A DNA stretch of 64,000 nucleotides, taken from Geobacteraceae bacterium. Its GTDB lineage: Bacteria > Desulfobacterota > Desulfuromonadia > Geobacterales > Pseudopelobacteraceae. Positions 43,184 to 57,390 of the stretch are shown one piece after another. The number at the start of each line of letters is the position of its first letter. The stretch's first letter is position 1. Where the stretch lies: contig JAJTBI010000006.1 of assembly GCA_021286935.1 (NCBI GenBank), positions 1 through 64,000 on the forward strand, given 5' to 3'. The position numbers were made by a program, and so were the translations under genes. The notes under the pieces were generated by a model that ran no database searches, was not told the origin of the DNA, and saw only the letters and a program-made list of their open reading frames with translations.

Positions 43184-43315
43184 TCACGCGAAGCCGCGAA
43201 GCCGCGGAGAAAATCTGATGGTGAGGAATAGCAAGCGGTAACCCTGCAGGGGAAATGAAAACATTCTGAGAATACCAGCCTGATTAAATGCTTCGCGTCT
43301 CTGCGTCTCCGCGTG
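43184..43315. repeat. Inverted dispersed repeat (CGCGGAGA family), copy 1
   Basis: The left arm TCACGCGAAGCCGCGAAGC... (43184-43211) pairs with the right arm ending CTGCGTCTCCGCGTGA (43291-43315). A related pair occurs at 57260-57390. It lies between the convergent lysC and radical-SAM genes. Similar GCAGAGACGCGGAG-type repeats occur in many genomes. Confidence 0.65.
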
Positions 43316-43348
43316 AAATGGTTTTTCTGGCGGTATTGTTTTGTTCTG

Positions 43349-44653
43349 TCAGCAGCCTGGTCGCAAGTCAGGCTTCCTTGTCCCCAGATCCTGTAGCACC
43401 AGACGCTCCAGCGAGGCATCCAGCATCGGGCGGTGGCATTCCACGGTGTCGATCGCACCATTTTTCTGTAGCGTCAGCAGGCGGCAGCCGCCGAAGCAGA
43501 TCGGCAGGTAGGCGCAGTCCAGGCATTCATCATTCTTCCAGATATCCAGCTTGTGGGAGTCATGGTAGTCGCGCACTCCATCAGTCAGGGTGCCGACGCA
43601 GAACTCCGGCCAGCCCATCAGGCTGGGGCATTTGTACAGGCTGCCATCGTAGTTGACCACCAGGGTCTGTTCCAGATCAATCATGCAGATCCCCATCTGC
43701 AGTTTGTCCACCGCAAAGCCGCGCCGCAATATTTCTTCCCGCAGAAACAGATTTGCCTCAATCAGCCAGGGCTCGTTGGGAAGCACACAGGCTGCGGCAT
43801 GGGGGTCAAACAGGCCTGACTTGGGGTGGATCGGTGAAAACTGCACCGGTCCCAGTTGCGTGGGATCAATACCGGCCTCCAGCAGCAGGTCCAGCATTGC
43901 CGGGAAGCAACGGTAATTGTCGCGGGTAAAATTGCCGCCCGGCTTGATGGTGACCAGATCATACACCGTTGCAAGGTTGTCAATAATGGTCTTGAAACTT
44001 CCTTTGCCCGATACAAACGGACGCTGCTGATCATGGATCTCCGGCGGGCCATCCAGGGTAATGATGGCGCTCTTCAGGCCAAGGGGTAGCAGCTCTTCCA
44101 CCACGGCCCGTGTCAACAGGGTGGCATTGGTCACCAGGCTGAACGAGAATGTTCTGCCTGCGTTTGCAGCTGCGGCCAACAGTGGGGTGGCAATCTCCTT
44201 TAGTCGTGTGGGGGCCATTAACGGTTCGCCGCCATAAAAGCGTAGTTCCACGTTGCGGCCCTGTTCAAGATGCTTGCTGACAAGATAATCAACCAGCTCC
44301 CTGCCGGTTTCCTCAGTCATCTCCTGACCGTCCCGGAACTGTTCTTCAAAACAGTAGGGACAGGCCAGATTGCAGGCCAGGGTCAGCACCACTGTGGCGG
44401 AAAAGAGCGGGACATGGCTATTGGTATGATCAACAATGGCGGCCATTTCGCTGCGTTCAGTAGCTGGGTCATCGGTCCAGAGCTGGAGCTGCTGTAGGGT
44501 GGCGCGTTCTTTGGTTGTAAGGGTGTTGTTTGTAATAGCGGTTAACAACTGCTCAGGTACCCTGACCACCGATCCCTTGCGGGTGGAGTACAGAATTGTA
44601 AAGCCGGGACGCTGCGGGTCAGGGAATGAGATGGCGTAACGGGAGAGTGGCAT
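43349..44653 (-). CDS. Radical SAM/SPASM peptide maturase (geopeptide maturase type)
   Basis: An ATG at 44653 is preferred over an upstream in-frame ATG because AGGAG lies at the right distance on the minus strand, giving 434 residues. Residues 1-75 look like a small peptide-recognition region; the radical SAM cluster motif is C-N-L-A-C-P-Y-C (Cys94, Cys98, Cys101); the C-terminal SPASM part has C-L-D-C-A-Y-L-P-I-C-F-G-G-C and C-H-R-P, ligands for auxiliary clusters. Such enzymes make thioether or other crosslinks in short precursor peptides. A 29-codon Cys peptide gene lies just upstream. The size and context match the family named geopeptide radical SAM maturase. Confidence 0.85.
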   Translation of the reverse strand: MPLSRYAISFPDPQRPGFTILYSTRKGSVVRVPEQLLTAITNNTLTTKERATLQQLQLWTDDPATERSEMAAIVDHTNSHVPLFSATVVLTLACNLACPYCFEEQFRDGQEMTEETGRELVDYLVSKHLEQGRNVELRFYGGEPLMAPTRLKEIATPLLAAAANAGRTFSFSLVTNATLLTRAVVEELLPLGLKSAIITLDGPPEIHDQQRPFVSGKGSFKTIIDNLATVYDLVTIKPGGNFTRDNYRCFPAMLDLLLEAGIDPTQLGPVQFSPIHPKSGLFDPHAAACVLPNEPWLIEANLFLREEILRRGFAVDKLQMGICMIDLEQTLVVNYDGSLYKCPSLMGWPEFCVGTLTDGVRDYHDSHKLDIWKNDECLDCAYLPICFGGCRLLTLQKNGAIDTVECHRPMLDASLERLVLQDLGTRKPDLRPGC

Positions 44654-44666
44654 GGTCAGGCTCCTG

Positions 44667-44700
44667 AAAAAATGAATGGGGAGCCAAGCGCCCCCCATTC
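44667..44700 (-). terminator. Hairpin plus T-run between precursor peptide and maturase
   Basis: On the minus strand GAATGGGG pairs with CCCCATTC (44674-44700) and is followed by A-T6, the form of an intrinsic terminator. It lies after the peptide stop and overlaps the region of the maturase ribosome site, so read-through would give much peptide and little enzyme, a common arrangement for modified peptides. Confidence 0.65.
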
Positions 44701-44720
44701 AAACACAACTTTGTCTTGTG

Positions 44721-44810
44721 TTACTTACGGGTGCTGTTGGTGCCACCAGTACAGCAGCCTGCCACCATCTGACACTCTTCCACTCCCTGATTCAGCACTT
44801 CAATTTCCAT
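44721..44810 (-). CDS. 29-residue Cys-containing precursor peptide (geopeptide-like RiPP)
   Basis: A 30-codon frame (ATG at 44808-44810, TAA at 44721-44723) sits behind a perfect AAAGGAGG ribosome site. The N-terminal half is acidic and leader-like (M-E-I-E-V-L-N-Q-G-V-E-E); the C-terminal half has Cys13, Cys19 and Cys20, with C-C-T-G-G-T-N-S-T-R-K at the end. The Gly/Ser/Thr-rich Cys core next to a SPASM maturase marks it as the substrate. Too short for standard gene callers. Product structure and role are unknown. Confidence 0.8.
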   Translation of the reverse strand: MEIEVLNQGVEECQMVAGCCTGGTNSTRK

Positions 44811-44835
44811 GATGCACCTCCTTTTGAGTGTAATG

Positions 44836-44871
44836 CCATCCAAATAGATGGAATGTAGGGTGTTTACCCTA
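44836..44871. promoter_or_regulatory. Two palindromes in the divergent promoter region
   Basis: TAGGGT-GTTT-ACCCTA (44856-44871) is a perfect six-base inverted repeat with a four-base spacer, and CCATC-N6-GATGG (44836-44851) is a second. They lie between the peptide gene (minus) and the TonB-dependent receptor gene (plus), where an operator governing both would be expected. No regulator gene is near enough to name. Confidence 0.45.
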
Positions 44872-44934
44872 GACGAATGTGTATAAATTTGCTAGTAAGA
44901 ATATGCACTGTAGGCAGGTTTACCAGGAGTGGTC

Positions 44935-46806
44935 ATGTTGATCCGTATCAACTGCAAAACATCATGGTTGCTTCTGCTGATGCTGTTGTGGCACACAACA
45001 GCCGTTTCGCTGTGTGCTGCTGATGATGGTCTGGAGGATCTTGGTATTATTGAGGCCCAGGCTGAATCGGTTGTTGCTGCTTCCCGTAGTCCCCGTCCTG
45101 CCTCCCGCGTTGCTGAAAACATCACTGTTATTACTGCTGATGATATTGAACGACTGAATGCCCATACCCTGGCTGAGGTGCTGCAGACTGTGCCCGGTAT
45201 CCAGCTTGATTTTATGCGTACCCCTGGCACCTTTAGTTTCTTCAATATCCAGGGAGCCTTGAACACAACGGTGCTGGTACTGGTGGATGGTATCCGCCAG
45301 AATGATTTTGACCAAAACATGGCTATTGTTGGTCTGATTCCGGTGCAGCAGATTGAGCGGGTTGAGATCATCAAGGGGGCTGCCTCGGCTGCCTGGGGAC
45401 CGGCCCTGGGTGGGGTGATCAACATCATCACCAAATCACCGGATGTTGAACGCAAATTCGGCGGCATGGTGTCCGGCTCCAGCGGTTCCCGGTTTACCGC
45501 AGATTCCCGCGCAGAGGTAAGCGGCAGCCTGGATCGTTTGGGCTATTACCTGACCGTTGCCAACCTGCGTTCCTCTGGTCTGACCCCCAATACCGGCACC
45601 AACCGGAATAACCTGTTTACCAAGCTCTCCTATCAGTTGCCCAATAATGGCAGCCTGACCTTTGGCCTGTCCTATCTGACCGCCAAGCCGGGTCTGGATG
45701 AAGGGGAAACAGTCAGCTGGGGTTTTGTGCATGATAACAACCAGTACCGCCGCACCAATGCCTACCTGAAACTTAACCAGCCGTTGACTGATCGCTTGAC
45801 CTTGGAACTGGACAGCTTTCTGACCAACCGTGATGACCATACCAAATTTGGTGGCCTGGACGGCTCAGGTAATCTGACTTTTTTTAATGATTATGTGGCG
45901 CGGGATACCAGCCAGGGGGTCAATGCCCGGCTGCGCTGGGGCGACTACCAGAAGAGTCTGTTGCTGGGGGTTGATTATAGCCACGCCTGGGCCATTAACA
46001 AAGACGCGCTGAGCAGTGATCCGCCGGTCTATGAACGGAGCTGGGACCGCTGGGGCATCTATGCCAACGGTGCCTACACCTTGGGCAAGTTCACGATTCT
46101 GCCCGGTGCCCGCTATGACATTACCGGTACCTCTGGGGATGTTACCAGCCTGACCCTGGGTGCCACCTATCAACTGGCTGAACATACGCTGCTGCGGGCC
46201 TATGCTGCCCAGGGCTATACCCTGCCCACACCCCGTGCCGACAATAAACTGCAGAAGATCAAGACCGTTCAAGTAGGGGTAGAGAGCGAGGCGCTGCCTT
46301 TTGTCTGGCTGAAGGGGACCTACTTTTTTAATGCCCTGCGTGACAGCCAGTCTATCGGTACCGTAACCACCAGCAACCAGCAACGTCAGGGGGTTGAGCT
46401 GGAGGCCCGCACCACACCGCTGTTCGGCCTTTCTCTGACCGGCGGCTATACCTATCTGGATGCCTGGGACAGTGATACCGGCCAGCGGCTGCATACCAAT
46501 TACGGCCAGGCGGTTCCCCCCCATACTGTCAAGCTGGGCCTGAATTATGATAACCGTGAGCTGGGGTTACGCGGCACGGTGACTGGCAACTATGTCTGGT
46601 GGAACCGGGATGAAGGCACTCTTGCACGCGACACCGGCATGATCTGGGATCTGCACCTGAACTGGCGATTGAAGTCGTTGTATAAACTGACACCTGAACT
46701 GTTCTTCTCTGCCCACAACCTGTTCAACGGTGTACAGACCACAGACACCGAACTGTATCGTAACGCCAGCCGCTGGTTTGAAGGCGGCATGCGGGTGAAG
46801 TTCTGA
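44935..46806 (+). CDS. TonB-dependent outer-membrane receptor
   Basis: The ATG at 44935 follows AGGAG with five bases between; the 623-residue product has a signal peptide (to about 28, A-A-D-D), a plug domain (I-T-V-I-T-A-D-D-I, L-V-D-G-I-R-Q-N, V-E-I-I-K-G-A-A-S-A-A-W-G-P, G-G-V-I-N-I-I-T-K) and a 22-strand-type barrel ending in aromatic Phe. The plug is of the BtuB/siderophore class. It shares a one-base overlap with the next gene, so it forms a trio with a binding protein and a hybrid kinase. The substrate is not predictable; no cobalamin riboswitch was seen upstream. Confidence 0.9.
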   Translation: MLIRINCKTSWLLLLMLLWHTTAVSLCAADDGLEDLGIIEAQAESVVAASRSPRPASRVAENITVITADDIERLNAHTLAEVLQTVPGIQLDFMRTPGTFSFFNIQGALNTTVLVLVDGIRQNDFDQNMAIVGLIPVQQIERVEIIKGAASAAWGPALGGVINIITKSPDVERKFGGMVSGSSGSRFTADSRAEVSGSLDRLGYYLTVANLRSSGLTPNTGTNRNNLFTKLSYQLPNNGSLTFGLSYLTAKPGLDEGETVSWGFVHDNNQYRRTNAYLKLNQPLTDRLTLELDSFLTNRDDHTKFGGLDGSGNLTFFNDYVARDTSQGVNARLRWGDYQKSLLLGVDYSHAWAINKDALSSDPPVYERSWDRWGIYANGAYTLGKFTILPGARYDITGTSGDVTSLTLGATYQLAEHTLLRAYAAQGYTLPTPRADNKLQKIKTVQVGVESEALPFVWLKGTYFFNALRDSQSIGTVTTSNQQRQGVELEARTTPLFGLSLTGGYTYLDAWDSDTGQRLHTNYGQAVPPHTVKLGLNYDNRELGLRGTVTGNYVWWNRDEGTLARDTGMIWDLHLNWRLKSLYKLTPELFFSAHNLFNGVQTTDTELYRNASRWFEGGMRVKF

Positions 46807-47681
46807 TGCGGCGCCTGGTCCTGTGCATACTCGCCCTGGCGTTGCTGGTTCCCTCATTGGCACAGGCCTATGACGTGCTGGTGCTGCAGAGCCAGCGCAA
46901 CCCGGCTTATGATGAGGTGTTGAAAGGTTTCTACCGTGATCAGGGGATTACCCGGCGGTTGGTGCTGCTGTCTGACTATGCCGAGGTGGATGTTGTGCGT
47001 CTTGTGCGCGAAGACCGGCCCCGCATGATCCTGGCCGTGGGGGATGCTGCCCTGGCCCTGGCCCGCAAGATACGGACGATTCCGGTGATAGCCCTGATGT
47101 CCCTTGATATCCATCGCCTGAAGTCTGTTCAATCCAACCTGACCGGTATCGATATGGTTGCCCAGCCTGAACAGTATTGTAATCTGCTGCGGCAGATGAA
47201 GGTGCGTCGGGTGGGGGTGGTCTATAACCCTGCCAGAAGCGGCTGGTACCTGCGCCAGGCACAGCAGGCAGCGGAACAGGCCGGTATCAGTCTGGTGCTG
47301 CGGGAGGTGACAACCCCCCGTGATACCCTGCCGCAACTGGCTTCGCTGGCCGGCAAGGTGGATGCGCTCTGGATGCTGCCGGATCTGACCGCCGTTACCA
47401 GAGAAACAACCGAGGCCTATTTTTACTTCAGCCAGCAGCACGGGGTGCCGGTGGTCTCGTTTACCGCCAGTTATCTGGGGCTGGGGGCGGCGGCGGTGCT
47501 GGATATTGATCGGGCTGCCCTGGGGCGTCAGGCCAGAGATCTGGTTGATCAGCTGCTTGAAGGCAGCTCTGGTGACAGCATGTCACTGCGCTTTCCCAGA
47601 GGGGTGACACTTAAAACCAATACCGGTCTGTTGAAACGTCTGAAAATCAACGATGCTCTGGTTAAACAGGTGTCAGAGTAG
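46806..47681 (+). CDS. ABC_sub_bind-type periplasmic binding protein
   Basis: The 291-residue product has a signal peptide (about 1-21, A-Q-A-Y) and the fold pattern of the ABC_sub_bind (TrpX-like) family: V-L-V-L-Q-S-Q-R-N-P-A-Y, a V-G-V-V-Y-N-P-A strand, and the final L-R-F-P-R-G-V-T-L. Its ATG overlaps the receptor stop by one base. There are no permease or ATPase genes, and the hybrid kinase starts 12 bases later; it probably reports a ligand delivered by the receptor to that kinase. Confidence 0.8.
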   Translation: MRRLVLCILALALLVPSLAQAYDVLVLQSQRNPAYDEVLKGFYRDQGITRRLVLLSDYAEVDVVRLVREDRPRMILAVGDAALALARKIRTIPVIALMSLDIHRLKSVQSNLTGIDMVAQPEQYCNLLRQMKVRRVGVVYNPARSGWYLRQAQQAAEQAGISLVLREVTTPRDTLPQLASLAGKVDALWMLPDLTAVTRETTEAYFYFSQQHGVPVVSFTASYLGLGAAAVLDIDRAALGRQARDLVDQLLEGSSGDSMSLRFPRGVTLKTNTGLLKRLKINDALVKQVSE

Positions 47682-47693
47682 TAAGGATCGCCC

Positions 47694-49631
47694 ATGATCT
47701 CCCGCCTGAAAAGTTTGAATGTCCGTACCAGCTTCCAGCTCAAACTGTTTCTTATCTTTACCCTGTTTACCTTTCTGATTGTCCTTGTCCTGAGTACCCT
47801 GTTTATTGCCCGTGAAGTTAGCAGGACAAAAACCGAGGCGGTCAAGCATCTGCAGCTGCAGGCCCAGACGCTGGCGCAATCGATCCGGCTGCCGCTGTTT
47901 GCTGAAAATACCTTTCTGCTGCGCCAGATGGCAGAGCAGCTGGCTGAATCACCGGAAATCCATCGGGTGGTGATCTCTGCCCCGGACGGCAGGGTACTGG
48001 TAGACCTGCATGGCAAATCCACTGAGCCTGCTGCAGAAATCATCAGCCAGACCATGGAGGTGCGTAGTAATCCGCAGACTTCCTCAATCAGCTCGTCACT
48101 GGGGGCCGGGGGAGATGTGCAGTCTGTGCTGGGATCGTTGCGGATTGAGCGCAGTACGGCTGATCTGTCCCGTTCAGTGCGGATGCTGGTGGCCTGGTCG
48201 GTCAGTATCGCCCTGCTCTTCTGGGTGGCTGTCTCTTGCCTGAGTCATCTGGTGCTGCTCCGGCTGACCCGCTCTTTTAATGCGCTGATGGAGGGGATTG
48301 ATGTCCTGCAGCAGGGTGAATACAGTTCCAGGATTGTCATTACATCCAATGACGAACCGGGACAGGCGGCGCTTGCGATCAATGAGCTGGCAGATTCACT
48401 GGAACAGCGCTTTGAAGAGATACGGCTGGCCAAGGAGGAGTTGCTTAGGGCCAAGGCTGAGGCAGAAGCGGCCAACAGTGCCAAGACCGAGTTTCTGGCC
48501 AACATGAGCCATGAGATCCGTACCCCGATGAGCGGGGTGATTGGCAATGCCCAACTGCTCCGTTTTACGGTTCTTTCTGAAGAACAGACCACGTATCTTG
48601 CAAATATCGAAAATGATGCAAAAACCTTGCTGGCGTTGATCAATGACGTGCTGGATATCTCCAAGATTGAGGCGGGAAAACTTGAGCTTGAGAGTGCGCC
48701 GTTCAGTCTGCACAGTTGCATCACACAGCTGATCAGATCCCAGGAAGCACGGGCGCAGGCAAAGGCTATTGCGCTGGTGCCTGAGGTGGCTGGCGATGTC
48801 CCGGACAGTCTGTTCGGTGATCAGTTGCGGCTGAAACAGATTCTGTACAATCTGGTGGGTAACGCCATCAAGTTTACCAGTAAGGGTGAGATACGGGTAG
48901 CGGTCAGGCTGCTGGAACGCCATGATGACAAGGCGCAACTCAGTTTCAGCGTTAGTGATACCGGTATTGGCATCAAACCGGAGGTGTTGGAGAAGATTTT
49001 TGCCCCCTTTGCCCAGGCCGATACCTCGGTGAGCCGCCGGTTTGGCGGTACCGGCCTGGGGTTGGCCATCTGCAGCCGGCTTGTCCAGCAGATGGGTGGG
49101 GAGATAACGGTTGAGAGCCGGGAAGGCACGGGCAGCAGCTTTACGGTTACCCTGCCGTTCCTGATCAACTCGCAGCCGATACCGCAGCAGGAAACCTCGA
49201 CGCCGGACAGGGTAAAATCGACATGGCAAGGGCCGCCGCTGCGGATTCTGCTGGCGGATGACAGTGAAACCAACTGCATGATGCTGAGCCTGCTGCTTTC
49301 TCGCTACGGTCATACCGTTACCCAGGCCGGTGATGGCGGTGAGCTGCTGCACCACTGGCAGAAGGGTGAGTTTGATGTGGCCCTGATGGATATCCAGATG
49401 CCGGTTATGGATGGTATGGAGACCACGCGGGTTATCCGTGAGCGTGAAAAAAAGAGCGGCGCACATCTGCCGATTATCGCCCTGACCGCCCATGCGTTGA
49501 AAGAGACCCGTGAACATATGTTAAGTTCAGGTTTTGACGGCTATGTTTCAAAGCCGATTGATCTGAAGCTGCTGCATGAGGAACTGCGGCAGGTGCTTGC
49601 GCAGCAGGCTGGGCAGGCGTCTGAAGGGTAG
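47694..49631 (+). CDS. Hybrid histidine kinase of the TonB-receptor trio
   Basis: The 645-residue product has membrane segments at about 17-37 and 165-186 around a periplasmic domain of about 125 residues, HAMP, a short coiled coil, His273 ([11 protein letters not shown]), an ATPase domain with D-T-G-I-G-I and G-G-T-G-L-G-L, and a receiver with Asp566 ([10 protein letters not shown]). It has no PAS domain, unlike the hybrids of the large run, so input must come through the membrane. No response regulator or HPt gene accompanies it. Confidence 0.9.
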
Positions 49632-57259: not shown

Positions 57260-57390
57260 TTCACGCGGAGCCGCGAAGCTCGCGGAGAATAGTAAGTGAT
57301 GAGCAAAAACAAGGAACAAAGGATTTGCCGAAACAACACCATGCCATAACGGCATGATTGTACTCTTCGCGTCTCCGTGTCTCCGCGTGC
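57260..57390. repeat. Inverted dispersed repeat (CGCGGAGA family), copy 2
   Basis: Left arm TTCACGCGGAGCCGCGAAGC (from 57260) pairs with CTTCGCGTCTCCGTGTCTCC... (57365-57390). Same family as 43184-43315 with a different spacer between the arms. Confidence 0.65.

Follow-up and report, generated by a model that had tools for sequence, protein, structure and literature searches.

This locus raises the question of what purpose is served by a 29-residue cysteine peptide encoded beside a radical SAM/SPASM enzyme, and whether the surrounding genes hold the answer. A sequence-only reading of the window, that is, the whole 64,000-nucleotide stretch of Geobacteraceae DNA analyzed here, had proposed a RiPP locus matching the geopeptide idea, with a precursor made up of an acidic leader-like half and a CCTGG core.

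The precursor gene and its maturase

The peptide reading frame and its ribosome site AGGAGGT (44816-44822, minus strand) were both found in the sequence where that reading had placed them, as was the CCTGG core motif, and the acidic half of the leader proved to be real. The gene (44721-44810, minus strand, stop codon included) encodes 29 residues, MEIEVLNQGVEECQMVAGCCTGGTNSTRK, and is supported by its open reading frame, its ribosome site, its conserved position and a match to the NCBIfam model TIGR04229 (35.2 bits, cut-off 30, all 22 positions covered); that is, an existing curated model already recognizes the window peptide. The leader motif IEVLNQG (residues 3-9; 44784-44804, minus strand), delimited with a profile of 126 distinct CC precursors, is presumed to be the recognition motif bound by the N-terminal domain of the maturase. 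A vicinal Cys-Cys pair follows at residues 19-20 (44751-44756, minus strand), and after it a 9-residue tail, TGGTNSTRK.

The radical SAM/SPASM gene lies just downstream on the same strand, across a gap of 67 nt (43349-44653, 434 aa). Its longest frame spans 43349-44698, and the ATG at 44653 was chosen as start because the family model, an AGGAG site and the homologues support it. The protein matches TIGR04280 with 674.9 bits (cut-off 400; positions 1-427 of 428), so that peptide and maturase both score above curated cut-offs and the geopeptide identity stands; the next-best NCBIfam families are RiPP maturases as well, such as CefB, TIGR04463 and PapB. The features of a radical SAM/SPASM RiPP maturase are present, namely the CxxxCxxC motif, the SPASM cysteines and an N-terminal RRE-like domain, the last taken from a medium-confidence model; C95, C99 and C102, together with C343, C378, C381, C387 and C391, are invariant in alignment A1. 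In that AlphaFold model (mean pLDDT 66.9, with the last 70 residues poor and the SPASM part of low confidence), three strands and three helices (b3-a3) are predicted at the N-terminus, resembling a precursor-binding RRE domain. The nearest solved enzyme is CteB, in a sequence comparison (5wgg, E 7e-20) as well as in a fold comparison (5why, E 1.3e-18, 409 columns), the RRE-like N-terminus included, and PapB, the maturase of freyrasin, is among the best NCBIfam relatives. Thermocellin (CteB) and freyrasin (PapB) are thioether RiPPs of the sactipeptide/ranthipeptide type; their precursors carry several spaced cysteines, whereas those of geopeptides usually have a single vicinal pair. The link made by CteB is S-C-gamma, to Thr, and those made by PapB are S-C-beta, to Asp (PMC11002830).

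The nearest named relative is Trichlorobacter thiogenes, whose maturase is 93% identical. TIGR04280 was detected in 103 of 141 genomes of the order, in 83 of its 103 good genomes and in 24 of 29 genera, as well as in 31 of 395 genomes of a phylum sample over the cut-off, and in 0 of 14 control genomes. In gene order, leader and CC core the window pair is like the TIGR04229/TIGR04280 system, and as far as we found it is a new member of a named, apparently unstudied family: our search of the open literature returned no paper naming geopeptide, TIGR04229 or TIGR04280, and for Geobacter a RiPP survey of anaerobes from 2014 names lasso peptides, with the geopeptide system absent (PMC4289311). As a separate observation, a TCGCGTCTCTGCGTCTCCGCGTGA element lies downstream of the maturase at 43293-43316, with a 3-mismatch copy at 57367-57390 (none expected by chance); its exact core occurs once in the genome.

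Precursors and regulatory elements beside other maturases

Conservation of the small frame beside maturase homologues had been set beforehand as the test that could refute the sequence-only reading. Once run, a leader plus CC (or CxC) frame with a ribosome site was found upstream of 112 of the 123 order-level maturases, the sites at which the maturase start is present, against 0/123 on the opposite strand of the same intervals, a frequency far above chance. Outside the order, at least 18 of 33 maturases have a CC precursor upstream. The peptide family is wider than its curated model, as just 17 places, spread over 14 of the 141 order genomes, score above the TIGR04229 cut-off.

Among the distinct precursors, 126/132 carry CC, and their leaders follow the pattern [LIV]x[VI]L[DE]xG, where the glycine is fixed by the search pattern itself; at positions which the pattern left more open, Leu is found in 111/126 and Val or Ile in 125/126. 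Mostly 8-12 residues separate the leader glycine from CC, and the tail thereafter measures 7-10 aa in 114/126 precursors, with hypervariable sequences that range from TGGTNSTRK to WTIFTYFDNTTW. The features conserved are thus the leader motif and the vicinal Cys pair: of the conserved Cys and Gly anticipated for the core, the cysteines held, while the glycine is not general, because it belongs to the hypervariable tail. Two precursor genes with unlike cores or tails precede a single maturase in L117, L123 and L154, and two members of the order (L100 and L101) have precursor variants lacking the Cys pair, e.g., RILVLDEGCAKSPYPKFCMVPLFRYYAN.

Between precursor and maturase, a terminator-like hairpin with a 12 bp stem and a T6 run (44673-44701, minus strand; fold z -3.4) was identified, and such a hairpin recurs at 71 of 129 sites, against 3.1 expected from shuffles. 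It is likely an attenuator, and its position between the two genes suggests transcription of more precursor than maturase. The window and nine modules gave no match in Rfam, and thus no known riboswitch. In the divergent promoter region, the palindrome TAGGGT-N4-ACCCTA (44856-44871) has its sole exact copy within the window; it is retained in T. thiogenes and, for the most part, in G126, and is possibly the site of a regulator. A sigma-54 promoter ahead of the peptide was rejected as a general feature (one-mismatch matches at 3/131 sites, 0.31 expected), and sigma-70 consensus matches occurred at chance level only.

A receptor module linked to the pair

The genes which bear most on function had been missed by the sequence-only reading. 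Divergent from the precursor, on the plus strand, are encoded a TonB-dependent outer-membrane receptor of 625 aa (44929-46806; Pfam Plug and barrel), a periplasmic substrate-binding protein of family PF04392 with an apparent Sec signal (46806-47681; assigned by Pfam, with PDB relatives 3lkv and 3lft) and a hybrid sensor histidine kinase (47694-49631; Pfam), the latter consisting of a TM segment, a periplasmic CHASE8-like region (below cut-off), HAMP, HisKA, HATPase and a receiver. These receptor genes are part of neither the TIGR04229 nor the TIGR04280 model. Among the order's 96 well-flanked maturase sites, where each side extends for 5 kb or more, a TonB receptor of one family was present at 95, the binding protein at 94, the kinase at 87 and the three together at 85, and an NtrC-type regulator at 47; at 12 well-flanked sites outside the order, the corresponding counts were 12, 11 and 10 for TonB, binding protein and kinase.

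Such an association might reflect inherited synteny around an ordinary geopeptide pair with no functional tie to the receptor genes, and wider synteny is indeed shared within the Citrifermentans-like genus g21. We consider this explanation very improbable, as the gene order varies (receptor divergent, receptor co-directional with the maturase, or binding protein split away), the orientations differ, and the module also occurs in other families of the phylum; its retention in several gene orders argues against synteny alone.

Neighbor clusters, read by eye, contained no recurrent ABC permease, exporter or peptidase, and the PF04392 protein of the window has no partner ABC permease; the binding protein therefore looks sensory. 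The N-terminal, sensor half of the window kinase was matched by 55 of 59 kinases (median 132 bits), whereas the C-terminal half gave a median of 56 bits: the sensor half is kept and the output half swapped. A periplasmic binding protein acting on a membrane sensor is likewise known from LuxP-LuxQ and NspS-MbaA, whose ligands are small molecules and which have no TonB receptor.

With this gene set recurring across Geobacter relatives, the peptide, maturase and receptor genes look like an undescribed peptide-sensing system, perhaps for cell-to-cell signaling, as judged from sequence. We give about an even chance to a RiPP-based system whose modified peptide returns across the outer membrane and is detected in the periplasm; the conserved receptor module makes re-import and periplasmic sensing the best working model, and the lack of a linked exporter or peptidase weakens it. 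What was seen directly comprises the two gene families, the conserved leader motif and Cys-Cys pair, the hairpin, the linkage of the genes and the modules that hold receptor genes only; around these the following course may be proposed. A leaky terminator-like hairpin would allow the short precursor to be made in excess over the maturase, whose CteB-like enzyme would bind the conserved leader motif by its RRE-like N-terminal domain and modify the region around Cys-Cys, most likely as a thioether. The C-terminal part, presumably released by cleavage, would leave the cell by an export route encoded outside the module, and the TonB receptor would re-import this putative ligand across the outer membrane. 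In the periplasm, the PF04392 protein would bind the peptide and the loaded complex would act on the sensor kinase through its periplasmic half; the kinase may then signal, in this direction, via its own receiver or an NtrC-type regulator. Specificity would be set by the tail, which is hypervariable in sequence but limited in length.

The communities in which Geobacter relatives live are dense and electrically connected, and we know of no established peptide signal among them; a search of the open literature for one gave nothing relevant. If the sensing model is true, most genomes of the order would carry a signal with its receptor, binding protein and kinase in one conserved cassette, which would offer a Gram-negative cell a way to sense an external modified peptide. 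Among related systems, streptococcal radical SAM RiPPs under quorum sensing also tie a small RiPP to cell-cell signaling genes, but they are Gram-positive, have quorum-sensing genes as neighbors and lack a TonB receptor or periplasmic protein (PMC11002830). The Itf cluster of Bacteroides also joins a radical SAM RiPP to a TonB-dependent transporter, but includes a YcaO protein and an ABC transporter/C39 peptidase, with no kinase module described (PMC11002830).

The same genes may be read as a metallophore or metal-sensing RiPP, whose vicinal thiols or thioethers bind metal outside the cell while TonB receptor, binding protein and kinase report the loaded complex. The usual cargo of TonB receptors is metal complexes, which keeps this reading a rival; methanobactin clusters perform metal reporting of this kind for copper, and they likewise place a Cys RiPP next to a TonB receptor and a periplasmic binding protein, a logic which the near-universal vicinal cysteines (126/132 distinct precursors) would suit. 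Methanobactin clusters differ in their modifying enzyme and binding-protein family, and the geopeptide module has a sensor kinase; a methanobactin identity, with MbnB/MbnC-type modification and oxazolone/thioamide ligands, was rejected, the modifying enzyme here being of the radical SAM/SPASM type. In the neighbor clusters read by eye, no inner-membrane permease or metal-homeostasis gene recurs with the module, no ligand residue besides CC is conserved, the hypervariable tail is unlike a fixed metal site, and receptor-only modules are common; we regard a metallophore as unlikely, though with a real chance. If it alone were true, the Cys RiPP system would still be an unstudied one, present in 83 of the order's 103 good genomes.

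Receptor-peptide matching and modules without a peptide

Tail hydrophobicity, an index picked after the tails had been seen, was predicted from neighbors in other genera with rho 0.84 by TonB sequence, 0.73 by maturase and 0.44 by binding protein, while the leader control failed (rho -0.20). Given the maturase, the partial correlation of TonB with tail hydrophobicity was 0.56-0.63; for two of the three genus-out settings the bootstrap interval of the TonB-maturase difference reaches zero, and one family-out setting reverses the order of the two. Furthermore, partial Mantel tests, in which parts of the peptide were compared with receptor and maturase, did not tell ligand matching apart from co-inheritance, because the leader control also correlates with TonB. 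A match between TonB sequence and peptide tail is suggestive only, and would also be expected if old cassette lineages were inherited whole.

Peptide loci almost always come with receptor genes, but the reverse does not hold: for instance at the loci L168, L170, L171, L175, L179 and L180, whose flanks measure about 5 kb or more on each side, a TonB gene is paired with a binding-protein gene, in many cases together with a kinase, and maturase and peptide are absent. Such modules, and the lack of a linked exporter, agree with the idea that the receptor genes sense a different compound from outside and that the kinase does no more than control production of the geopeptide, which would act elsewhere, e.g., as an antimicrobial or a cofactor. 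This is improbable in our judgment, since the TonB/binding-protein link survives rearrangements and spans families, the type of tail is predicted by TonB sequence across genera, and no immunity-type gene was recognized near the module.

Under the sensing model, modules of this kind may be receivers. At L185 (10020-10180) a peptide leader, and at L172 (538-730) a broken peptide frame, is fused to the last maturase codons; in both, the TonB, binding-protein and kinase frames are kept, and the peptide core and most of the maturase are deleted. These are possibly receiver-only lineages that arose via two different deletions; both genomes are drafts, in which an assembly fault is conceivable, yet the two remnants are unlike each other. 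More broadly, and with somewhat less than even confidence, we propose a widespread peptide language among Geobacter relatives, which would comprise radical SAM-modified peptides, TonB re-import, sensing by binding protein and kinase, many dialects of the tail, orphan receivers, and lineages in which the peptide was lost but the receptor retained. Separately, a geopeptide-like gene with a CIC core adjoins TonB and binding-protein genes at L182 (9928), a locus without a maturase, in a genome that encodes two other maturases elsewhere.
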